Below are positions 2 to 14,577 of a DNA stretch of 64,000 nt, one piece after another. Position 1 is the stretch's first letter. Every line of letters starts with the position of its first letter. This DNA comes from Anabaena sp. UHCC 0187. GTDB lineage: Bacteria; Cyanobacteriota; Cyanobacteriia; Cyanobacteriales; Nostocaceae. The stretch lies in the NCBI RefSeq assembly GCF_009712035.1, contig NZ_VILB01000008.1, forward strand, positions 24,518 through 88,517, given 5' to 3'. The translations under genes and the position numbers were made by a program. Under the pieces are notes generated by a model. The model saw only the letters and a program-made list of their open reading frames with translations. It ran no database searches and was not told the origin of the DNA.

Positions 2-1297
2 GGTAATGGGACTTATACCTTCACCCCAACTGCTGACTTTAATGGTGCAGTTAATCTTTCCTACGGTGTGAGTGATGGTACAGATACCTTAGCTGGACAA
101 ACTCAGACTTTCTCTGTGACTCCGGTTAATGATGCACCAACTGTAGCAAATGCGATCGCAAACCAAACCACTCTAGAAGATGGTTTCTTCAGCTTTACCC
201 TTCCCGCCAATACCTTTGCTGATGTTGATGCAGGTGACAGCTTAACTTATACTGCTACTCTCGCTAACGGCAATTCTCTACCTACCTGGTTAACCTTCGA
301 TGCTGCTACCAATACCTTTAGTGGCACACCCGACGACCCAGATAACGGCACAATTAGCATCAAAGTTACCGCGACTGACACCAGCAATGCCAGTGTTAAT
401 GATACCTTTGACCTGACCGTAACTCCTGTCAACGATGCACCTGTAGCTGGTGATGACTCTTTTAGTGCCAATCAAAATACCCCATTGACCTTGCTATCTG
501 GCGACCTGTTAGCAAATGATACCGATGTAGATAGCCCTACTTTGAGCATCTCTGCTGTCAGCAACAGTGTTAACGGTAGCGTAACTATCAATAGCAGTGG
601 CAATGTCGTCTTTACTCCCACCACAGGTTTTAGTGGGGATGGCAGCTTTAGCTATACCGTCAGCGATGGCAATGGTGGCACTGACTTAGGCATGGTAACA
701 GTAGCTGTCGGGGTTAACCTCAACGGTACTAACAAAGATGACGTTATTAACGGTACACTCGGCAACGACATCATTAACGCCCTCAATGGTGATGATAATG
801 TCTTCGGCAATGCTGGTAACGACAACCTTGTTGGTGGCAATGGCGATGACATACTCTATGGCGGTGCTGGTAACGATCAACTTTATGGCGGTAACAGCAA
901 TGACTTCCTCTATGGTGATGCTGGTAACGACCATCTCGAAGGTGATAACGGTGAAGACAAACTTTATGGCGGTGACGGTAACGACACCCTTTTCGGTGGT
1001 AATGGTGAAGACTTGCTTGTTGGTGGTGCTGGTAATGACTTCCTCAACGGTGGCAAGCAAGATGACATCCTGACTGGCGGTACTGGTAGCGATATCTTCG
1101 TCTTCGAGAAAGCCGCAGGTAGAGATAAAATCACTGATTTTAGTTTAGGTCAGGGCGATAAAATCGGCTTGTCTGGCTTGAGTTTCAATCAGTTGTCCTT
1201 CTCTGGTGATGAGATTCGTTTGGGTAATCAAACTTTAGGCATATTGACCGGGTTTGATACTACTACACTGACACAGAACAACTTTATCTCTGTTTAA
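2..1297 (+). CDS. RTX/cadherin-like surface or secreted protein, 5' end outside the window
   Basis: The reading frame is open from base 2, so this is the C-terminal part of a longer gene; the GTG at 68 is only an internal codon. In order one sees the end of a cadherin-like repeat, a dystroglycan-type cadherin domain (nt about 150-430), a second cadherin-like domain opening with PVNDAP and ANDTD motifs (nt about 430-710), then about a dozen GGxGxDxLxG nonapeptides (nt about 730-1090) that bind calcium in RTX proteins, and a hydrophobic C-terminal block (GSDIFVF, ITDF) usual in cyanobacterial RTX proteins. Such proteins leave the cell through type I secretion. No exporter gene lies beside it. 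The next gene downstream is a second RTX protein on the same strand. Confidence 0.9.
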   Translation, partial: GNGTYTFTPTADFNGAVNLSYGVSDGTDTLAGQTQTFSVTPVNDAPTVANAIANQTTLEDGFFSFTLPANTFADVDAGDSLTYTATLANGNSLPTWLTFDAATNTFSGTPDDPDNGTISIKVTATDTSNASVNDTFDLTVTPVNDAPVAGDDSFSANQNTPLTLLSGDLLANDTDVDSPTLSISAVSNSVNGSVTINSSGNVVFTPTTGFSGDGSFSYTVSDGNGGTDLGMVTVAVGVNLNGTNKDDVINGTLGNDIINALNGDDNVFGNAGNDNLVGGNGDDILYGGAGNDQLYGGNSNDFLYGDAGNDHLEGDNGEDKLYGGDGNDTLFGGNGEDLLVGGAGNDFLNGGKQDDILTGGTGSDIFVFEKAAGRDKITDFSLGQGDKIGLSGLSFNQLSFSGDEIRLGNQTLGILTGFDTTTLTQNNFISV

Positions 1298-1324
1298 GTG
1301 GATTAGATATCTCTGATTGAGAAT

Positions 1325-1352
1325 GTAGGGACGTTATATAGAACGTCTCTAC
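1325..1352. repeat. Palindromic interspersed repeat, GTAGAGACGTT family
   Basis: An 11-base arm at 1325-1335 pairs with 1342-1352 (one G-T pair) around a short A/T loop. It lies between the two RTX genes. Related copies at 47321-47350 and 55081-55109 share the GTAGAGAC core, so this is an interspersed family and not a gene-specific site. It could also act as a weak terminator for the first RTX gene. Confidence 0.7.
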
Positions 1353-1424
1353 AAGAGTTTTCGGTATATCGTATTATTTGTTTAAAACTATTTAACCATT
1401 TACGTAGGCAAAATCGTAATTATT

Positions 1425-3653
1425 ATGATTATTAATGGTACTTCCAATAACGATGAGTTAATTGCCCAACAAGGTGATCAAGTCTTTGGATTTGCAGGTG
1501 ATGATACCCTAGATGCAGCTAATGGTGATGGAAATAACATCCTTGACGGTGGATCTGGCAACGACAAGCTTTTTGGGAATAATAACGACACCTTAATCGG
1601 TGGTGATGGAAATGATAGCTTATATGCTAAAGGTGATTCCGGTAATAACATCCTCAATGGTGGTGCTGGAGAAGATGACTTATATGCTGAAGGTAATTCC
1701 GGTAATAACATCCTCAATGGTGGTGATGATAGCGATCGCTTGTTTGTCTTAGAAGGCGATAATAACAGCCTGAATGGTGATGCTGGAGATGATGAGCTTT
1801 ATGTCATGGACGGTAGCCTTAACACTCTCAAAGGCGGGGTTGGTAATGATTTTCTTCAGACACTCAGCATCACAGGTAACAACACCCTAGAGGGTGGTGA
1901 AGGTAATGATACTCTGATGGGAACACTGGCGAGCGATAGCTTATTTGGTAATGATGGAAATGACTTACTCTACGCTGGTAAACAAGGTACTAAAATGATT
2001 GGCGGTAATGGATTTGACCGCTTTTATCTTGGTAATGGTTCAGTTCCTGATGTACCCGCAGAAGTATTAGATTTTACAAAAAGTGATGATAAAGTTGTCA
2101 TTGCTGGCATCCCTCAAGTCCATAATTTTGAAGACATCATTCTAGAGCAAGTTGGGAATGACACAATTGTCAAAGCTCTAATTGATAGTAGTGAAAAAAA
2201 CTTGGGCATTTTACGAAATGTCCTCAGCAGTGATCTAGATGCTTCTAATTTTGATTTTATAATTCCTGTTTTCTCAATTACTGATGCTGCATCTATTGAA
2301 GGTAATGATCTAAATTTCACCATTACCCGCACCGATGATATATTAATTGAGCAAACAGTGACTGTATCCACATCCATAAATACAGGAGATACAGCCAGTG
2401 TTTCTGACTTCACTGCTCAAACTCAAACTATCACCTTTGCTCAGGGAGAAACCCAAAAAATCTTTACTGTTTCCAGCATACTAGATAGCTTATTCGAGAG
2501 TGCTGAAACTTTTACTGTGACTTTAAGTAATCCCACAAACGGATCAATTATCAATTCTACAAATGGCATAGCCAAGGGAACTATTAATGATGAAGATATA
2601 CCTCTAGCCGTTATTACCAACAACAGCATATTTAGTGTTAAAGGAGTTGGTGATACAGTCAGACTCAAAGCCACCTTAATAGAAAGCAATTCTACTTTTG
2701 TCAACGAACTTGGTGTATTTGTTGTTGACAATGCCGAAGGTAGAATTAACGGTATTGCACCAGGGGAACAAGGTTACAATGAAGCCGCTTTTAACCGAGC
2801 AAAAACCCAAGGTGAAGGTATTTTTTCTGCCATTGCTAATCTTCCTAATCTGTTTAAAACTGACATTGAAACTAATAGTCTGACACGACTACTGGAATTT
2901 GATTCTGGTAGTTACTTAAAATTCTTTTTAGTCAAAGACGGTACGGTTGATGCTTTCAAAGCCGGACTCATTGAAAATACCAACATTTTATTTGCTGATT
3001 CTTCAAACCAAATCATTACACAAGAAGAGGGTAATTTTACAATTTCCTGGAAAGAAAATACGACTAAGACCAACTTCGATTCTCTAGTAGTGAAGATAGA
3101 ATCAACTGATGAATCCTTAACTATAGGTACAGCACTACAAGAAGAAAGCCAAGCAAAATTAATTGATTTACGAGATATATCAGGTTTGGTAAAAGCAGAC
3201 TTTTCTGTGTTTAGAGAAGCTGCATACAACAACGAGGTCTATTTTTATGAAGTCAACAATGCTCAAGGACAAATTGGCAGCCTGGAAGCAACTTCAGCTA
3301 ATAGAGCCAATTACTTACAAGCAGCCATCAACAATCTGATTAAAGATGCAGAAACTGGTGAAACCATCAAATTTGCTGTTTCTAACCAGGGTCAATTCAC
3401 AGACAGTGCCATGATTACAGGTGGTTCAATCTTCGCTCCCATGATCATTATCAATGGCACTTTGTCACAGTTGACTGATAATAATACTGATAATGATCCT
3501 CAAGTTTATTTCCCTTACTTGGGAGTCAATTCTGATGGAGTAGACCACATTCGCTTATTAGCAGACAATACATTTGGTTTCGAGGACTTATCTGGTGGTG
3601 GTGACTTGGATTACAATGATTTAATTATTAAATTGAACTTCACTGTCCAGTAA
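1425..3653 (+). CDS. RTX protein with Calx-beta and DUF4114 domains
   Basis: A 742-residue calcium-binding surface or secreted protein. Residues 1-200 are RTX-like GGxGND/GGDGND repeats with irregular spacers. Residues about 280-390 form a Calx-beta domain (FSITDAASIEGN start, TFTVTLSNPTNG, then TINDED end). The last 60 residues carry the DUF4114 signature (DLSGGGDLDYNDLI), which is common at the C-terminus of cyanobacterial surface proteins. The ATG at 1425 is followed at once by the first repeat and there is no signal peptide, as expected for type I secretion. It lies 127 bases after another RTX gene, so the two may be co-secreted or paralogous. The precise role is unknown. Confidence 0.9.
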   Translation: MIINGTSNNDELIAQQGDQVFGFAGDDTLDAANGDGNNILDGGSGNDKLFGNNNDTLIGGDGNDSLYAKGDSGNNILNGGAGEDDLYAEGNSGNNILNGGDDSDRLFVLEGDNNSLNGDAGDDELYVMDGSLNTLKGGVGNDFLQTLSITGNNTLEGGEGNDTLMGTLASDSLFGNDGNDLLYAGKQGTKMIGGNGFDRFYLGNGSVPDVPAEVLDFTKSDDKVVIAGIPQVHNFEDIILEQVGNDTIVKALIDSSEKNLGILRNVLSSDLDASNFDFIIPVFSITDAASIEGNDLNFTITRTDDILIEQTVTVSTSINTGDTASVSDFTAQTQTITFAQGETQKIFTVSSILDSLFESAETFTVTLSNPTNGSIINSTNGIAKGTINDEDIPLAVITNNSIFSVKGVGDTVRLKATLIESNSTFVNELGVFVVDNAEGRINGIAPGEQGYNEAAFNRAKTQGEGIFSAIANLPNLFKTDIETNSLTRLLEFDSGSYLKFFLVKDGTVDAFKAGLIENTNILFADSSNQIITQEEGNFTISWKENTTKTNFDSLVVKIESTDESLTIGTALQEESQAKLIDLRDISGLVKADFSVFREAAYNNEVYFYEVNNAQGQIGSLEATSANRANYLQAAINNLIKDAETGETIKFAVSNQGQFTDSAMITGGSIFAPMIIINGTLSQLTDNNTDNDPQVYFPYLGVNSDGVDHIRLLADNTFGFEDLSGGGDLDYNDLIIKLNFTVQ

Positions 3654-7097: not shown

Positions 7098-7469
7098 ATG
7101 ACAGAAGCGAAAAACGTACTGGGGACAAAATTAGAACTTTGCTGCACTTCTCCCATGACTGGCTTTTACCGCGACGGATTTTGTACCACAGGTGGACAAG
7201 ATACGGGAATGCACGTTGTTTGCGCTCAAGTTACAGAGGAATTTTTGCAATATACTAAATCCCAGGGAAATGATTTGAGTACACCTGCACCTCATTTTAA
7301 TTTTCCTGGCTTAAAACCTGGTGATTGTTGGTGTTTATGCGCTGCAAGGTGGCAAGAAGCCTTAGAAGCTGGTGTTGCACCGACCGTAGTTTTAGAAGCC
7401 ACCCATGCTAGGGCTTTGGAAGCTTGTAATTTAGAAGATTTGCAAAAACATCGGGTAATTCGTAATTAG
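7098..7469 (+). CDS. DUF2237 family protein
   Basis: A 123-residue cysteine-rich cytoplasmic protein matching the DUF2237 pattern: an N-terminal NVLGTKLELCC, SPMTGFYRDGFC, a histidine/cysteine segment (MHVVCAQVT), GNDLSTP, and the FPGLKPGDCWCLCAARW block before APTVVLEATH. The function of the family is not established. It begins 9 bases after the ABC transporter, so the two are probably co-transcribed. Part of the gene (from about 7293 to the stop) exists again as a decayed copy at 12471-12603, on the other side of the NLR-like cassette. Confidence 0.85.
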   Translation: MTEAKNVLGTKLELCCTSPMTGFYRDGFCTTGGQDTGMHVVCAQVTEEFLQYTKSQGNDLSTPAPHFNFPGLKPGDCWCLCAARWQEALEAGVAPTVVLEATHARALEACNLEDLQKHRVIRN

Positions 7470-7661: not shown

Positions 7662-7976
7662 TTATTTACTGCTTTTACTGACTTGAGAACGTTCTAAAAG
7701 ATCATTCAAGTCCTTTTTTGCTTCTTGAGTCAATTTCAAACTAGCTAAATTAGCTACAATGCTTAAAGGGACATTAACTCGGTCTGATTGTATCCTATTA
7801 AATAATAATAAAATGACTATCAATAACGTTACCATTGTAGATAAAATGGTAATACTAACACCTAAGTAATAAGTAACCCTTGATTGATGAACTAACAAAT
7901 CAATGATTTGACTTTGCTTTTCTTGAGTAATTTGAATATGTGAATCTTTTGGGGATTTTTTAAACCAGTTAAACAT
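7662..7976 (-). CDS. Small single-pass membrane protein beside the NACHT genes
   Basis: A 104-residue protein of unknown family. It has a charged N-terminus (MFNWFKKSPKD), a soluble stretch up to residue 33, one long hydrophobic segment at residues about 36-60 (YLGVSITILSTMVTLLIVIL), and a helical charged tail (KLTQEAKKDLNDLLERSQ). The cassette's first NACHT gene starts 227 bases away on the other strand, so the two share a divergent promoter region. Small membrane proteins often accompany cyanobacterial STAND ATPases, and a role as membrane partner or effector is possible, but that is inference from position only. Similarity to the TRADD-N-associated membrane family was considered and cannot be claimed. 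Confidence 0.6.
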   Translation of the reverse strand: MFNWFKKSPKDSHIQITQEKQSQIIDLLVHQSRVTYYLGVSITILSTMVTLLIVILLLFNRIQSDRVNVPLSIVANLASLKLTQEAKKDLNDLLERSQVSKSSK

Positions 7977-8202
7977 AACTCTTAACTCCTATTTTGATGA
8001 TTTATCTCAGTTCGTTTTTGAACTTAATAACAATATAGAAATTTCATTCAAAATGAGAAAGATGAAAAAAGGGTTTTCTTCGTGAAAACTTTTCCCCAAA
8101 CTTTAGGGAATTTAGTGAAATATCAATACCCCAAATTCCCTAGACAACAATAATCCATATTTGCTATAGTAGAGAAAATTAAGCTACTACTAATTTATAT
8201 TC

Positions 8203-9606
8203 ATGAATAAACCAGAAAAAGTACAAGCTAGTGAGGCAGGAAAAGCTAAACTAAAAGAAGTATATAAAAAAGCAAGTTTTACTATAGAAACTCTAGCAAC
8301 AACAGCAAATGCTAGTCAAGACCAAATTAAATATTTAATAGGACAAAATACCCAAAAAGTAAAAGCAGTTGATAGATACATTATAGAAAATGTAGTGAAT
8401 GCTATAAATGCAGGATTTAAAAAAAATGATATAGATGAAAAACTCACACCATCAGATATAGTTGATGATTGGTATCCACCACTAATACCAACAGAATTTA
8501 CAACCGTAATTGCAGACAAAACCCAAATATTTTGCGGTCGCAAATTTGTATTTGATGCTATTACCGAATTTATCAAAGATAACAAAAGTGGCTATTTTAC
8601 CATCCTTGGTGATGCGGGAATGGGTAAAAGTGCTATTTCTGCCAAATATATAGTAGATAATCCTGGAACAATTTGCTTTTTTAATATTCGCGCTGAAGGT
8701 AGAAATCGTCCCGATGTATTTCTGAGATTAATTCGTCAACAATTAGTAAATAGGTTTGATTTACAGAATGTAGAAAATGATGATTTATCTACTTTATTAA
8801 TTAAAGCTAGTCAACAATTATCTAATTCTGAAAATTTAGTAATTGTTATTGATGCTTTAGATGAAGTTGATCAAGAAGACAACGGAAATCTATTAAATTT
8901 ACCGATGTATTTACCGGAAAAGGTTTACTTGATTTTCACCAGAAGACCTTATAATTTAGATGATAAAAGATTAACTCTTTCCCCCGATACTAAATATCAA
9001 GAATTAGATTTGAGGGAATATCAGGATAAAAGTAATAATGATGTAAAAGCCTATATTAAAGAATTTATGGATTTACAAGAATATAAAGCACGTTTAGAAA
9101 ATTGGATAATACAACAAAGGAATTTGTCAGTAGATGAGTTTATTAAAACTATCGCTGCTAAAAGTGAAAATAATTTCATGTATTTACGCTATGTTTTAGA
9201 AGCAATTGCAGAAGGATTTTATAAAGATGAAAAACTAGAACAATTACCCGCAGGTTTACAGGGATATTATGAGAGTCATTGGCGCATTATGGGAATGACT
9301 GCTAGACCTTTACCCAAGGATAAAATTAAAATCATTTATGTAATGTGTGCTTTAGAAAGTGCCGTATCCCGTGAAATGATTGTGAAATATTCCCAGGAAG
9401 ATGATCTCACAGTGCAGGAAGTTCTCAAAGGTTGGACACAATTTTTACAGAAACAAGAAACCTATCAACCGGCTCGTTATCGCTTTTATCATGAAAGTTT
9501 CCGCGATTTTTTACAACGTCAGGAGATTGTGGAAGCTGCGGGGGTGAGTTTACCTCAAATCAGCGCGGAAGTTGCTAAAAATATGGCTGAGGGATTAATA
9601 CTATGA
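8203..9606 (+). CDS. STAND ATPase with N-terminal HTH-like and NACHT domains
   Basis: A 467-residue NLR-like signalling ATPase. Residues 8-80 follow the pattern of an HTH-like helical domain that precedes many cyanobacterial NACHT domains (SEAGKAKLKEVYKK, then NASQDQIKYLIG). FCGRKFVFDAI at 110-120 opens the ATPase; Walker A is GDAGMGKS (136-143), Walker B VIVIDALDEVD (213-223), and FTRRP is a sensor arginine motif. A winged-helix part and the FYHESFRDFLQ motif close the protein. Its TGA overlaps the ATG of the WD40 gene (ATGA), so the pair looks like one NACHT-WD40 receptor encoded in two translationally coupled parts. A cell-death or anti-phage role is plausible for such proteins but not shown here. 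Confidence 0.85.
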   Translation: MNKPEKVQASEAGKAKLKEVYKKASFTIETLATTANASQDQIKYLIGQNTQKVKAVDRYIIENVVNAINAGFKKNDIDEKLTPSDIVDDWYPPLIPTEFTTVIADKTQIFCGRKFVFDAITEFIKDNKSGYFTILGDAGMGKSAISAKYIVDNPGTICFFNIRAEGRNRPDVFLRLIRQQLVNRFDLQNVENDDLSTLLIKASQQLSNSENLVIVIDALDEVDQEDNGNLLNLPMYLPEKVYLIFTRRPYNLDDKRLTLSPDTKYQELDLREYQDKSNNDVKAYIKEFMDLQEYKARLENWIIQQRNLSVDEFIKTIAAKSENNFMYLRYVLEAIAEGFYKDEKLEQLPAGLQGYYESHWRIMGMTARPLPKDKIKIIYVMCALESAVSREMIVKYSQEDDLTVQEVLKGWTQFLQKQETYQPARYRFYHESFRDFLQRQEIVEAAGVSLPQISAEVAKNMAEGLIL

Positions 9607-11300
9607 GTAACTTTCGCACTTGGTTTGATAAAAAATCAGAGGAAGCACAAGAACAGTTTTTAGGTGAATATACCCGATTATTGTTAGCAAATGAAGAGTA
9701 TAAAAAACTGTGCCAATTATTAGCTAACTACTACTTTATCGAAGCGAAAATTAATCATCCTTTATTTGGAGTAAAAGCACTGATTGAAGATTATGATTTA
9801 TTAGATACTTCAGGAATCATGAATAATTTAAAATATGCAGAAACTATCAAATCACTAAAATTAGTTCAAGGTGCTTTATCCAGATCAGCACACATAATAT
9901 TTCGAGAGCCAAAACAACTCAAGGTACAACTATCAGCACGACTAAAATATTTTGATTTACTAGAAATTGAAAATTTGTTAGCACAAATCGCCACAGATAA
10001 AAATATAGGTTTATATAGTTTAATAGGTAGCCTCACACCTCCTGGTGGTGGTGGATTAATTCGCACCCTCTCAGGTCATAGTAACTTGGTAAATGTGCTT
10101 GCAGTCACACCCGATGGTAAAACCCTGATTTCTGGTTCATCTGACAACACTATCAAAATCTGGGAGATAGGAACACGTGCAGAAAAGTTCACGCTAAGAG
10201 GTCATAGTGACTGGGTAAGAGCGCTCGCAGTCACACCCAATGGTAAAACCCTGATTTCTGGTTCATATGACAATACTATCAAAATCTGGGATTTAGGAAC
10301 ACGTGCAGAAAAGTTCACCCTTAACGGTCATAGCTCCTTGGTAAATGCGCTCGCAGTTACACCCGATGGTAAAACACTAATTTCTGGTTCATCTGACAAA
10401 ACTATCAAAATCTGGGATTTAGGAACACGTGCAGAAAAGTTCACCCTAAGAGGTCATAGTAACTCGATAAGAGCGCTTGCAGTCACACCCGATGGTAAAA
10501 CCCTGATTTCTGGTTCATCTGACAACACTATCAAAATCTGGGATTTAGGAACACGTGCAGAAAAGTTCACCCTTAACGGTCATAGTGACTGGGTAAATGC
10601 CCTCGCAGTTACACCCAATGGTAAAACCCTGATTTCTGGTTCATATGACAAAACTATCAAAATCTGGGATTTAGGAACACGTGCAGAAAAGTTCGCCCTT
10701 AACGGTCATAGTGACTGGGTAAATGCTCTCACAGTCACACCTGATAGTAAAAACCTGATTTCTGGTTCATCTGACAAAACTATCAAAATCTGGGATTTAG
10801 GAACACGTGCAGAAAAGTTCGCCCTTAACGGTCATACTAAATCGGTAAATGCGCTCGCAGTTACACCCGATGGTAAAACCCTGATTTCTGGTTCATATGA
10901 CAATACTATCAAAATATGGGATTTGGGAACAGGTGCAGAAAAGTTCACTCTTAAAGGTCATAGAACGATTGCATTCACACCCGATGGTAAACCCCTGATT
11001 TCTGCTTCAGGTGGCAACACTATCAAAATCAGGGATTTAGGAACACGTGCAGAAAAGTTCACCTTCACTAATAATAGTGACTGGGTAGAAGTGCTTGCAG
11101 TCACACCCGATGGTAAAACCGTGATTTCTGCTTCAGGGGACGATACTATCAAAATCTGGGATTTGGAAACAGGTGAAGAAATAGCAACTTTCACAGGAGA
11201 AAGTCCAATAAAATGCTGTGCAGTTGCTCCCGATGGGGTGACAATAGTAGCGGGAGAAGAATCGGGAAGGTTACATTTTCTGCGTCTGCAAGGAAGGTGA
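9603..11300 (+). CDS. WD40 propeller protein, partner half of the NACHT ATPase
   Basis: A 565-residue protein. Residues 1-155 are helical and match the linker found between NACHT and WD40 parts in fused homologues (KLCQLLANYYFIEAK, VKALIEDYDLL, the SLTPPGGGGLIRTL joint). Residues 156-565 are about ten WD40 blades of 42 residues; the first seven are nearly identical, with unit TPDGKTLISGSSDNTIKIWD. Blade eight is short by about five residues and has IRD in place of IWD. The start overlaps the NACHT stop (ATGA) and no other upstream start is needed. Together with the preceding gene it makes a complete STAND receptor in two chains. The propeller is the expected sensor. Confidence 0.88.
   Translation: MSNFRTWFDKKSEEAQEQFLGEYTRLLLANEEYKKLCQLLANYYFIEAKINHPLFGVKALIEDYDLLDTSGIMNNLKYAETIKSLKLVQGALSRSAHIIFREPKQLKVQLSARLKYFDLLEIENLLAQIATDKNIGLYSLIGSLTPPGGGGLIRTLSGHSNLVNVLAVTPDGKTLISGSSDNTIKIWEIGTRAEKFTLRGHSDWVRALAVTPNGKTLISGSYDNTIKIWDLGTRAEKFTLNGHSSLVNALAVTPDGKTLISGSSDKTIKIWDLGTRAEKFTLRGHSNSIRALAVTPDGKTLISGSSDNTIKIWDLGTRAEKFTLNGHSDWVNALAVTPNGKTLISGSYDKTIKIWDLGTRAEKFALNGHSDWVNALTVTPDSKNLISGSSDKTIKIWDLGTRAEKFALNGHTKSVNALAVTPDGKTLISGSYDNTIKIWDLGTGAEKFTLKGHRTIAFTPDGKPLISASGGNTIKIRDLGTRAEKFTFTNNSDWVEVLAVTPDGKTVISASGDDTIKIWDLETGEEIATFTGESPIKCCAVAPDGVTIVAGEESGRLHFLRLQGR
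10074..10955 (+). repeat. Seven near-identical 126-base tandem units (WD40 blades)
   Basis: Units begin with GGTCATA at 10074, 10200, 10326, 10452, 10578, 10704 and 10830, an exact 126-base period. Bases differ mainly just after GGTCATA (codons such as AACTTG, GACTGG, TCCTTG, AACTCG, AAATCG) and at AAC/AAA before ACTATC. More diverged units follow to 11300. Such uniformity implies recent duplication or gene conversion and makes the copy number likely to vary between strains and assemblies. Confidence 0.95.
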
Positions 11301-11302
11301 AA

Positions 11303-12439
11303 ATGAATACCTTATCTTTCTCTTCCCCAGACTTACAATCCATCATCCTCAGCAAAACAGAAAATTTTGTTGGTCGTGATTTTATTTTCACTGCTATTAA
11401 TAATTTTCTCCACCGTTACCCCAAGGGTTATTTCACCATTGTGGGTGTTCCCGGTAGCGGTAAAAGTGCCATTCTTGCCCAATTTGTGCGCCAAAATCCC
11501 CATACTATTTATTACAATGCCCAAATTGCGGGTAAAAATCGAGTTGAGGCATTTTTTCCAGAGGTTTGTACACAGTTAAATTTATTGTTAGAGAATTTAT
11601 CTAGCACCCCTCCCCAACCCTCCCCGCAAACCATGACAGAGACAGGATTTATCAATGCAAATGAGGGAAGTTGGTTATTTTCTACTTTATTGCAACAAGT
11701 CAGCGAGAAATTACCAGATCAGAAAATAATTATTGTGATTGATGGTTTGGATGGAATTGATATAAATAGTCAAGCTGTAGGAACGAATTTATTTTATCTA
11801 CCGCGATATTTACCCGATCAAATTTATTTTATTTTCGCTCGTCGTCCCTATCAAAAATCCCATAGTGGCTTGTTAATTGAAGCACCTTCACAGATTTTAG
11901 ATTTAGCAGATTATCCAGTGGAGAATAGGGAAGATATTAAAGCATATATTCAGAGAAACCTAACCCCCCTAACCCCCCTTCCCTACCAGGGAATGGGGGA
12001 ACAAGAGTTTTCTAACTCCCCTCTCCTCCCAGGAGAGGGGTTGGGGGAGAGGTTTAATGAAAATGAAGATAATTTTATGTATGTGCAACAAATTTTAAAA
12101 GCTATTGCTGATGGTTTTTATTCTGCAAATGATTTTGAGCAAATTCCACCAGATTTAGAGGTCTATTATCAACAACATTGGCAAAAAATGCAAGGTCAGG
12201 GTTTATCTGATGTTGCGATGGATATATTGCGGGTTTTGACTGCTGAAGAAACTCAACCCATGTCAACAGTAGCTATTAGTCAAATTATCAAAGCTGATGT
12301 TTTTGATGTGGCGGAAATTATGGAAACTTGGTTAGAATTTCTGCAAGAAATACGCACAAGTAAGGAAACTCAATACCAATTATATCATCACAGTTTTCGG
12401 TTATATCTTCATTATTACAGCACTTTGCCTAACGGTTAA
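11303..12439 (+). CDS. Second, shortened NACHT-type STAND ATPase
   Basis: A 378-residue paralogue of the 8203-9606 ATPase lacking the N-terminal HTH-like part and any WD40 tail. Walker A is GVPGSGKS (48-55), Walker B IIVIDGLDGID (143-153), followed by FARRPY and FRLYLHYY near the end. The ATG at 11303 has the purine-rich AAGGAAGG upstream and lies 2 bases after the WD40 stop; the ORF could be extended to 11213 but that would run through the WD40 gene. Residues about 219-251 are proline/glycine-rich and are written by a repeat inserted in frame, where the paralogue has a helical segment (LENWIIQQRN). It may be an inactive or decaying copy or a regulatory partner. Confidence 0.75.
   Translation: MNTLSFSSPDLQSIILSKTENFVGRDFIFTAINNFLHRYPKGYFTIVGVPGSGKSAILAQFVRQNPHTIYYNAQIAGKNRVEAFFPEVCTQLNLLLENLSSTPPQPSPQTMTETGFINANEGSWLFSTLLQQVSEKLPDQKIIIVIDGLDGIDINSQAVGTNLFYLPRYLPDQIYFIFARRPYQKSHSGLLIEAPSQILDLADYPVENREDIKAYIQRNLTPLTPLPYQGMGEQEFSNSPLLPGEGLGERFNENEDNFMYVQQILKAIADGFYSANDFEQIPPDLEVYYQQHWQKMQGQGLSDVAMDILRVLTAEETQPMSTVAISQIIKADVFDVAEIMETWLEFLQEIRTSKETQYQLYHHSFRLYLHYYSTLPNG
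11958..12052. repeat. C/G-rich palindromic repeat inside the second NACHT gene
   Basis: The stretch opens with two CTAACCCCC units and contains a perfect 10-base hairpin, CCCCTCTCCT (12018-12027) with AGGAGAGGGG (12031-12040), followed by TTGGGGGAGAGG. The same vocabulary appears between genes at 27648-27690. It is an intergenic repeat type of cyanobacteria that here lies in frame in a coding region; a shorter CCCCTCCCCAACC run at about 11609 in the same gene may be another remnant. Confidence 0.8.
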
Positions 12440-12465: not shown

Positions 12466-12470
12466 TATAT

Positions 12471-12603
12471 CATTTTAGTTTTCCCGGTTTAAAAGCCGGT
12501 GATTGTTGGTATTTACGCGCTGCAAGAGGGCAAGAACCACGCTAGGGCGTTAGAAGTTTGTAATTTAGCAGACTTGCAAAAATATCGGGTAATTCGTAAT
12601 TAA
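12471..12603 (+). pseudogene. Decayed 3' fragment of the DUF2237 gene
   Basis: Bases 12471-12603 align with 7293-7469 of the intact DUF2237 gene. The translation gives HFSFPGLKAGDCWYL, AARGQE, then HARALEVCNLADLQKYRVIRN and a stop, so the end of the protein is recovered. About 44 bases coding for the EALEAGVAPTVVLEA region are deleted, shifting the frame, and there is no start or N-terminal half. The fragment lies right after the NACHT cassette and in the same orientation as the intact gene, so the cassette is bracketed by a partial direct repeat about 5.2 kb apart. Confidence 0.9.
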
Positions 12604-12626
12604 AAAACTGCCACTAACTCAAATTA

Positions 12627-13451
12627 TTAACTCCGACATTTTGGAGTTTTTCCATAATTAGGAGTAGCGTCAGGATAAAAGGTACGAATAGCACCTTTTT
12701 TAGCAACAAAAATATTTGCAAATGTTTTGCCGTTATCAGTCACACTCAACAAACAAGCTTTGGGAGTTGCATTTAAACTAGGGTTATTTTTGTATGCTTT
12801 AGCTGCAATAGTTAAAATCTCTTCGGCATTGAGGGTGTAACCATATCCTTTGAATGGATCATTGACGATGCGATTGCCCACTTTCATGCTAACACCAAAG
12901 GAATAAACAGCCCCTGGTTTCACCTCAGATTTTTTCACAGACTGAGGTGAAATTCCCGCAATACCTCGTTTCTGTAAATCTAAATAACGTCCAGCATAGT
13001 GTAAACCACCAATTTTAGTTTCTCCGGGTTCACCACAAAAAACATGATCGAATCCTTTTGCATTAAACCAAAGATTAGTTAAATCTTCCAGAAATTTTGG
13101 ATTAGAAGTTCTATCTGGAAAAATATAACCCCCAACATTAGTTTTAATATTGCTGAGAACATTGGGAAAACTGTTAAACATGGTTTTGAATTCAGTAGGT
13201 TTAACCACTTTTCCTAATTTCCCACATAATTGATTAACTGCTTGATCAAACTTATTCAATACAGGAGGAGGAGGAGTTAAATCTTGTCTACCACCAAATT
13301 TAACGTTAACAGGATTATCAATATTATCAAAGAAAGGTAAAAGTTCCTCTGCGCTTACCAAGGTAGGACTAGATAGAGTAGTTACAAAAAATAGTCCTGT
13401 TGCTGAAATTAAGCAGAGAAATCCATTTAACTTGTTTAACATCATTGGCAT
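12627..13451 (-). CDS. Secreted EndoU-like protein
   Basis: About 275 residues, starting at the ATG at 13451 or 13445 (an ORF extension to 13487 only adds residues before the signal peptide). A signal peptide (hydrophobic core CLISATGLFFVTTL, cleavage near LVSAEE) is followed by a proline run (TPPPPV). The region FDHVFCGE and, after a short gap, GLHYAGRYLDL matches the first two conserved blocks of the EndoU ribonuclease fold, each with its histidine. EndoU domains occur in bacterial toxins and in housekeeping secreted proteins; there is no immunity-gene candidate next to it. It sits between the NACHT cassette and a J-domain gene. Nuclease activity is not certain. Confidence 0.65.
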   Translation of the reverse strand: MPMMLNKLNGFLCLISATGLFFVTTLSSPTLVSAEELLPFFDNIDNPVNVKFGGRQDLTPPPPVLNKFDQAVNQLCGKLGKVVKPTEFKTMFNSFPNVLSNIKTNVGGYIFPDRTSNPKFLEDLTNLWFNAKGFDHVFCGEPGETKIGGLHYAGRYLDLQKRGIAGISPQSVKKSEVKPGAVYSFGVSMKVGNRIVNDPFKGYGYTLNAEEILTIAAKAYKNNPSLNATPKACLLSVTDNGKTFANIFVAKKGAIRTFYPDATPNYGKTPKCRS

Positions 13452-13521
13452 CTCACTGGATTCACGTATTAATATAAACAGCACCAAAGTACCATTAAAC
13501 TATTAATCGTGTCAATTGTTA

Positions 13522-14577
13522 CTAATTAAAATTCATCATGTCCCCAAATTCTTCCATCATTTTCTCCATTAATTCTTCCATCATCTCCTCCTGCATAGAA
13601 CGGAGACTTTCGGGACCTGCCAGAAATTCCTTAATCGTCATTTTTTTATCTTTAAAATCTTTGACAAAATCACGAATTTCTGCAACGATTTTAGTTTGAT
13701 TTTGCATGGTTTCCAGCATCACTTCAATACAATCAACACCTTGTTTAGCTGCTTTTTTGTAATCAGCAACCATAGACCCTTCTGGGGTATTTTTTGCTAA
13801 TCGGAGTTCTTGCTTCAATTTCTCATACTGATTTTTGAGAATTTGATTGTGTTGTTCTATATTTTTACATTTGCGACTTAAATCATCCTCACTATTATTA
13901 TCAATTGTTTCTCCGACTTCATATTTACGTTCAATTTCCAAAAGTCGCGCTAAATCTCCTTCTTGGTAAGCTTTATTAATTTCCTTCATTATTTCTGTGT
14001 GCGTCATTTGGGTTTCATTATCTTTAACCTTATCAGGGTGAAAGATTTCCGCTAATCGCAAAAATGTCTGTCGGACTTTTCTAGATTCATCTGTTCTCGC
14101 TACTGTGGGAGATTCTGAATCTCCTTCTGCTTCCCAAAACTGACGACGACGTTGATGATTTTCTTCAGAATCATCATTTTCAAATAGTTCATCTAATTCT
14201 TCATCATCATCTTCTTCATCATCATCAATGGGTTTATAACTAATAATTCCTCCCTTTTGTAAACTTCTGTACAGTGATTGGATATTTTTCTGGGTTTGTT
14301 TTCCCATCTTTCTCGTAGTTAAAATTTCGGCAAACAAAGCATGAATTTCTGCATCTAATTCTGCCATTGTTTTCATATTCGGACTAACTCGATGAAATAC
14401 CTCTGTAGCTAAAGAACGCATTTTTTCGACAAAGTTATTTAATTCTGTCCGCTTTTTCTTAATTTGCTTTAATAAAGATTCGTGTTCTTTCTCTAAACCC
14501 TGTAACTGAAGATGTAAGTCAGAAAGAGCTAAGGGAGTTACTGTAGTTGAGGATGCTGTTTTTGTTTTGCGTGCCAT
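13522..14577 (-). CDS. J-domain (DnaJ-like) coiled-coil protein
   Basis: A 351-residue cytoplasmic protein. Residues 1-120 are charged and coiled-coil-like, followed by a very acidic run (residues about 119-137, DDDEEDDDEELDELF). The J-domain-like part is RQTFLRLAEIFHPDKV with the diagnostic HPD, then KEINKAYQEGDLARLLEIE. The C-terminus is again helical and rich in Met and Glu. It lacks the Gly/Phe and zinc-finger parts of DnaJ, so it is a specialised Hsp70 cochaperone or a J-like protein of unknown client. It stands alone between the EndoU-like gene and hpnK, on the same strand. Confidence 0.75.
   Translation of the reverse strand: MARKTKTASSTTVTPLALSDLHLQLQGLEKEHESLLKQIKKKRTELNNFVEKMRSLATEVFHRVSPNMKTMAELDAEIHALFAEILTTRKMGKQTQKNIQSLYRSLQKGGIISYKPIDDDEEDDDEELDELFENDDSEENHQRRRQFWEAEGDSESPTVARTDESRKVRQTFLRLAEIFHPDKVKDNETQMTHTEIMKEINKAYQEGDLARLLEIERKYEVGETIDNNSEDDLSRKCKNIEQHNQILKNQYEKLKQELRLAKNTPEGSMVADYKKAAKQGVDCIEVMLETMQNQTKIVAEIRDFVKDFKDKKMTIKEFLAGPESLRSMQEEMMEELMEKMMEEFGDMMNFN

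Follow-up and report, generated by a model that had tools for sequence, protein, structure and literature searches.

The 64,000-nucleotide (nt) stretch of the Anabaena sp. UHCC 0187 genome (5.1 Mb) analyzed here, termed the window, carries a cassette that includes: (i) TM, a gene for a small protein with two membrane spans (7662..7976, minus strand; 104 aa), (ii) the divergent N1, encoding a STAND ATPase with a helix-turn-helix (HTH) head (8203-9606, plus strand; 467 aa), (iii) a linker and WD40 gene (9603-11300, plus strand; 565 aa), and (iv) N2, a second, headless STAND ATPase that lacks the catalytic glutamate (11303..12439, plus strand; 378 aa). Open reading frames (ORFs) and Pfam place these parts where a preliminary description of this DNA had placed them. 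A putative inverted operator array lies between TM and N1 (8071..8145). Together these features suggest an NLR-like receptor that is divided between chains and probably has a transcriptional output.

The probable two-chain receptor and its headless partner

Relatives of N1 were sampled as the best 80 of 165 matches from a search of genome contigs plus the best hits of 148 genomes of the order, of which 52 contain a match; the counts given here are not a census. Sixty wider stretches were retrieved around relatives (loci are numbered L and genomes G), and the removal of identical N1 cores left 127 distinct N1 genes. The closest kin among the best 80 of 165 matches belong to Dolichospermum and Anabaena. 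Comparison of gene order, which the preliminary description had proposed, finds N1, linker-WD40 and N2 in this order at dozens of cyanobacterial loci, and because of this recurrence the arrangement is more than chance.

The N1 protein is composed of a Cro/C1-like HTH head (8203..8487), based on helices predicted with high confidence at residues 11-74 and on Pfam matches of relatives, and an ATPase of nucleotide-binding, first helical and winged-helix domains (NBD-HD1-WHD; 8488..9606), based on Pfam, alignment and fold comparison. The ATPase matches NPHP3_N above the Pfam cut-off (1.1e-7) and AAA_16 (1.1e-5) and NACHT (0.0053) below it. N1 has the Walker A and Walker B motifs and the glutamate typical of STAND ATPases, the latter being conserved in all 130 of the 132 aligned rows that have a residue at this position. 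In a fold comparison that excluded the HTH part, N1 aligns to Apaf-1 residues 105-470, and Apaf-1 is the single, marginal match (E 0.0096) when the PDB sequences are searched with an N1 profile. Foldseek returns a maltose-system entry as the first match to N1, and Avs3 is also matched by fold.

The linker-WD40 gene starts within the N1 stop (ATGA overlap). Its linker, LK (9603..10058), is all-helical by predicted structure and may correspond to Apaf-1 HD2, with its best alignment to Apaf-1 residues 469-586; Foldseek alone gives no match for LK. The WD40 propeller (10059..11300), identified by Pfam and repeat analysis, is built of near-identical blades, in which 8.9 copies of a 126-base unit span 10073-11181. 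For the 57 proteins that have four or more full blades, blade identity has a median of 0.72 within a protein (0.80 in the window) and 0.57 between proteins, and within-array variation is greatest at blade columns 31, 12, 15, 13, 33, 8 and 11. The blades differ mainly at face positions. The fungal HET-E protein has high dN/dS at positions 10, 11, 12, 14, 30, 32 and 39 (PMC12222747). With the Gly-His pairs aligned, columns 11, 12, 13, 15, 31 and 33 correspond to HET-E positions 10, 11, 12, 14, 30 and 32, such that six of the seven are shared. Since such positions are exposed in any WD40 blade, the likeness to HET-E may reflect convergence or constraint.

The preliminary description had recognized a two-chain STAND receptor, and the relatives bear this out: a linker-WD40 gene follows N1 within 2.5 kb in 122 of the 124 N1 genes with more than 600 bases downstream, overlapping it in 71 (by exactly 4 bases in 28). 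The further statement that both parts stay in a single protein in fused homologs hardly holds for this family, as N1 is fused to linker-WD40 in 1 of 127 genes (L118); fused ancestors as the norm are rejected on the same count. The split is no peculiarity of the window, as the family is normally built in this way, and N1 and the linker-WD40 chain very probably form one split NLR-like receptor.

The second ATPase reported after the WD40 gene is confirmed by an AAA_16 match of N2 (2.9e-10). Although the mechanical ORF of N2 opens within the WD40 gene, at 11213, translation probably begins with the ATG at 11303, two bases past the WD40 stop. N2 was described as shortened, which holds in that it has no head and fails in that its length is about that of the ATPase part of N1. 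With 280 aligned residues and 280 bits as the minimum for assigning N2, and with counts limited to genes that have more than 5 kb downstream, N2 is present in 54 of 64 genes of N1 head clusters 0, 1 and 3 (27/31, 21/27 and 6/6) and in 0 of 30 of the rest. In L034, L039 and L058, it is WD40 and N2 that form a fusion. The 55 distinct N2 proteins all share the Walker A G, G and K and the Walker B aspartate, while the catalytic-glutamate position is E in only one (L167); N2 is therefore likely to be a partner that binds nucleotide and hardly hydrolyzes it, and may serve to stabilize or seed the assembly. Inside N2, a loop insert (~11959-12055; LTPLTPLPYQGMGEQEFSNSPLLPGEGLGER) with variants in the N2 of L034, L036, L039, L101 and L109 resembles a translated repeat element. 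The same repeat element occurs in a fragment of a second N2-like gene on another contig of this genome (C5; L220:6785-7276), which is a remnant of another cassette.

Heads, the divergent membrane gene and the putative operator array

The N-termini of N1 fall into ten clusters, with the window in cluster 1. Pfam names the heads of cluster 0 as NNH5, cluster 4 as HEPN_Swt1, cluster 6 as protein kinase and cluster 8 as EAD4, each from a single representative (two for NNH5), and clusters 1 and 3 are HTH-like. Scanned singly, seven of eight cluster 1 relatives score above the HTH_26 or HTH_3 cut-off, while L056 and the window copy score below. Two members of cluster 3 are below the Pfam HTH cut-offs, and the cluster 1 profile matches this cluster at 96.9%. 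A FastTree phylogeny built from 124 cores implies 18 changes of head label, where as few as 9 would be possible; based on these sequences, the N1 heads are modular.

TM is a probable relative of PF20712 (CyanoTRADDas_TM), which the window copy matches below the cut-off (18.9 versus 24.3 bits) and seven of eight homologs at the same position match above it. The conservation of a divergent membrane gene, as the preliminary description expected, holds solely for HTH-type N1: where the upstream sequence exceeds 1 kb, a divergent TM accompanies N1 in 25 of 36 genes of cluster 1 and 5 of 10 of cluster 3 (30/46 HTH-headed) compared to 0 of 71 with other heads. When sought independently of N1, the TM family is found in 32 of 148 genomes. 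The TM model matches 25 of the 30 best TM-family loci, and 19 of these have a divergent ORF that begins HTH-like by eye. Of ten such starts scanned, a single one passes a Pfam HTH cut-off, and a further two match below it; a profile of 14 matches the cluster 1 HTH at 95.6%. The HTH and the divergent two-span membrane gene thus look like a module of their own. Elsewhere, L214:1932-4882 encodes another receptor, with HTH, NACHT and NCH2 in one chain, a divergent TM and general-type operator sites (described below), and L215:8728-9193 is a TM gene that has operator sites and lies near no match to the N1 model.

The operator was analyzed in 34 TM-N1 intergenics (one a duplicate; 10,063 bases). The word ATCTGCCC recurs in 22 of 33 intergenics without the duplicate, whereas in 100 Markov resamples no 8-mer is present in more than 11. 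Sites that match ACCTATCTGCCCTA at 12 or more of 14 positions number 49 in 22 of 34 intergenics (shuffle mean 0.09) and 0 in 364,325 bases of flanks. Within 500 bases upstream, the sites are found for 25 of 40 genes of cluster 1 versus 0 of 91 of other clusters. Of the neighboring site pairs in '-+' orientation, 22 are 25 or 26 bases apart. In ten whole genomes, the exact 13-mer occurs at the N1 locus (places read by eye) in all seven that have a cluster 1 N1, with five more copies elsewhere in four of the seven, and is absent (0/3) from the genomes without a cluster 1 N1. A large regulon is not supported: with up to one mismatch allowed, counts of the general 13-mer exceed the control in some genomes and fall short of it in others.

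The window and its close kin L034-L037 have no general site and carry instead a conserved inverted array of AAATTCCCTA type. In the window, the GGG/CCC cores lie at 8071, 8094, 8106, 8129 and 8138. Conservation of this type is 0.80-0.96 (20-base steps from 8057 to 8176) versus 0.44-0.75 in the remaining intergenic. The G/C cores are spaced nearly as in the general array (85, 108, 120, 129 and 152 in L037; 84, 108, 119, 129 and 153 in L055), and the ungapped identity to the array of L153 is 45%. The window array lies 57 bases from N1 and 169 bases from the TM start. For the general arrays, the distance to N1 is 56-62 bases at 8 of 21 loci and greater at 13, with a median of 161 bases to TM. A single exact copy of CCCCAAATTCCCTAG occurs in the genome, at this array; 25 copies have up to two mismatches, against 3 in the control. 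Promoter-like sites, inferred from consensus matches, are noted for TM (TTCTCA-16-TATATT; 8032..8059, minus strand) and N1 (TAGACA-18-TATAGT with an extended -10; 8141..8170, plus strand; 10/12), and their numbers are not above shuffles on either side. The N1 site overlaps the last operator element at its -35, and the TM site lies beyond the first element.

The recognition helix and the operator letters were compared by hand for 36 distinct heads from 40 rows (four duplicates). Heads with a KRL-type helix have general TCTGCCCTA sites at 11 or more of 14 positions in 26 of 27 cases (25 at 12/14), the exception being L038, while the KYL-type helix of the window and four close kin is paired with the AAATTCCCTA type in 5 of 5 and with no general site. 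Four heads with other helices have neither site type. The five KYL heads are close kin, so their pairing with AAATTCCCTA may be a single change; however, L059, with a core 81% like that of the window, has a KRL-type helix and general sites. L051 and L053 have sister cores, and their TM proteins differ at 3 of 97 residues. Their intergenics are alike in the first part, after which L053 has the other HTH cluster and RGTATA direct repeats spaced by 11-22 bases rather than the general array. RGTATA is present in 4-5 copies in 7 of 11 cluster 3 genes, compared to a mean of at most 0.25 per 250 bases in clusters 0, 1, 2, 4 and 5. The loci with these repeats upstream of an N1 of the second HTH type are L053, L061, L071, L089, L091, L095 and L097, with a spacing of mostly 11-15 bases. 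Because recognition helix and operator letters covary, and change together in L051/L053, the heads are taken to bind these sites; the covariation is good evidence of this, and the HTH of N1 would very probably bind the array. Against this view, when HTH and TM are treated as tree traits, p is 0.125.

Relation to known systems and genomic setting

Apaf-1, CED-4 and Dark share with the cassette the order of NBD-HD1-WHD, helical domain and WD40. By contrast, the window receptor is in two chains, cut near Apaf-1 residue 470, the HTH replaces the CARD, and N2, the operator and the membrane gene are extra. The bNACHT and Avs proteins likewise pair a repeat sensor with a STAND ATPase whose heads are exchangeable; the window differs in a sensor on its own chain, a pseudo-ATPase partner and a transcription-type head, and any protective role is hypothetical. 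A partial PADLOC match to Avs1b (3.7e-10) is not taken as identity, as the NCBIfam equivalog scores 21 bits against a cut-off of 1500. MalT and AfsR are STAND transcription regulators. Like the window, where the sites are putative, regulators of this type combine a STAND ATPase with an HTH and repeated promoter sites, whereas the HTH of the window is N-terminal and Cro/C1-like, the sensor is separate, and relatives carry effector heads instead.

Two ATPases to one propeller had seemed unrecognized but have a precedent in the WRAP operon of Nostoc, in which TIR-STAND is coupled to STAND-WD40 (Dunin-Horkawicz 2014, as cited in PMC9218822). Like the window, this operon couples the genes of a pair of STAND ATPases and a single propeller of highly repetitive sequence; unlike in the window, its propeller is fused to its ATPase. 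A WRAP query finds genes in 16 of 217 family genomes, and five of seven retrieved regions have a 511-522 aa gene beside a STAND-WD40-like gene. None of the seven regions exceeds 12 bits against hidden Markov models of our own for N1, N2, LK and HTH, which leaves room for remote kinship, and WRAP is rejected as the same system. Pfam finds no TIR on the first ATPase, unlike in WRAP, and no TRADD-N domain among seven window proteins. In the TRADD-N conflict systems, what is probably the same membrane family is encoded divergently from a protein whose start is HTH-like (PMC8195603), as in L187, where HTH-like, TRADD-like_N and pentapeptide parts are accompanied by a divergent TM-family gene; a transcriptional response is hinted at for HTH-TRADD-N proteins (PMC8195603, section 9). 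The fungal HET-D/HET-E NLRs have near-identical WD40 blades with six shared variable columns (PMC12222747, PMC4986451), yet are one chain with a HET head. In addition, their position 39 (column 40 here, 0.13) does not vary in the cassette family, and column 8 (0.60) is absent from their list. STAND receptors with exchangeable heads, propellers with high internal conservation (HIC), HTH-TRADD-N proteins and the two-STAND WRAP operon are thus already known; new are the tie of TM to HTH heads, the inverted operator array and the covariation of operator with recognition helix. Searches of the open-licence literature, outside of which most subscription papers fall, show no description of the split three-gene cassette or its operators.

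The cassette lies between an intact DUF2237 gene (7098-7469) and a decayed copy of the DUF2237 3' part (12470-12610; two blocks of 86-87% identity), a pattern as after a duplication or recombination event. L037 shares this site (ABC-DUF2237-cassette-DnaJ). In G128 of the same genus, DUF2237 is followed by WD40 and part of N2 up to the contig end (L252), where the TM and N1 models have no match; G195 has ABC and DUF2237 and no cassette. Plasmid-borne relatives account for six records, with some copies beside an integrase; on a Chroococcidiopsis plasmid, N1-WD40-N2 adjoins a recombinase gene and is annotated merely as AAA ATPase, WD40 and ATP-binding protein. A phage-borne origin is rejected, as a phage collection searched at 1e-6 has no match to the cassette. 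Gain and loss of this kind fits a conflict system and does not prove one. PADLOC gives partial or weak matches only, and no recognized defense neighbors, for eight window proteins. Neighboring genes encode a bacterial EndoU nuclease domain protein (12627-13487, minus strand; Pfam 1.8e-29) and a DnaJ-domain-like protein (13522-14577, minus strand; Pfam 1.3e-4, under the cut-off) that adjoins the cassette here and in L037; DnaJ is reported in phage sensing by bNACHT25 in a 2025 paper (PMC12169576). At 68-3653, two repetitive proteins with GGxGxD-like repeats are, by eye, of the calcium-binding RTX type.

Proposed mechanism and alternatives

N1 (head-NBD-HD1-WHD) and the HD2-WD40 chain are proposed to reassemble an NLR-like receptor, in which the propeller would sense a ligand that drives assembly. 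N2 would join this complex of three chains as a fixed ATP-bound partner, binding nucleotide without hydrolyzing it. The Cro/C1-like HTH, in place of an effector head, would bind the inverted array between the N1 and TM promoters, and assembly would alter the seating of N1 on the array and so change the expression of N1 and the divergent TM. The sign of this control would be such that TM is raised or released to act, presumably harmfully, at the membrane. The signal is probably answered by switching genes, and a split Apaf-1-like receptor that governs its own and the TM promoter is the favored reading, more likely than not. TM as the effector and immunity as the role each stand at about even odds. 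The full reading, to which a probability of roughly 0.35 is assigned, is of an undescribed class of split NLR that turns sensing into a gene-expression decision: a two-chain Apaf-1-like receptor, seeded by an ATP-state pseudo-ATPase, would sit on an operator array and, on ligand, release or switch on a membrane-acting protein, with HTH and operator as a plug-in cassette that is exchanged as a unit and elsewhere replaced by effector heads (HEPN, kinase).

A less likely alternative is that the HTH serves autoregulation only, repressing its own and the TM promoter to keep N1 scarce, while the defense or death step occurs at the protein level through an N1/WD40 assembly that acts on TM as an anchor or pore. 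Small proteins with two membrane spans are plausible pores. The overlap of the last operator site with the promoter-like -35 of N1 suits a repressor, as does the precedent of CdxB, which represses lypABC, a toxic NLR-like operon (PMC13236601). Against autoregulation alone, TM is absent in the 71 genes with other heads; the TM gene therefore follows the HTH and not the receptor as such. Distinctly less probable is a non-immune switch, in which a MalT/AfsR-like STAND regulator would adjust the amount of a membrane protein in response to a metabolite, to stress or to a signal from kin. The maltose-system match of Foldseek and the lack of recognized defense neighbors by PADLOC are in its favor, whereas the heads of relatives (HEPN, EAD4 and NNH5) are typical of conflict systems, the repetitive blades have variable face positions, some copies are plasmid-borne beside an integrase, and the cassette is decayed in the sister genome G128. 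That a broken fused receptor lies by accident beside unrelated neighbors, as the decayed copy in G128 and fragments elsewhere in the UHCC 0187 genome might suggest, is scarcely credible given the same split and order in 122 of 124 genes, the intact motifs of N1 and N2, a pair that is almost never fused and a membrane gene conserved with HTH-type N1.

Receptors of the Apaf-1 type are central to cell death in animals, and prokaryotic roots have been proposed for them. The family described here presents the Apaf-1 modules on separate chains, separated at the joint that precedes the sensor arm; its heads are exchangeable and its N2 partner, probably non-hydrolyzing, is conserved, which makes its members natural parts for questions of NLR assembly. 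The most informative part lay beyond the view of the preliminary description, namely the link of HTH to TM and the operator array, as the output of the HTH subtype, a promoter, is directly readable. If the proposed mechanism is true, a reporter could replace killing assays in finding the ligands of the variable propellers.

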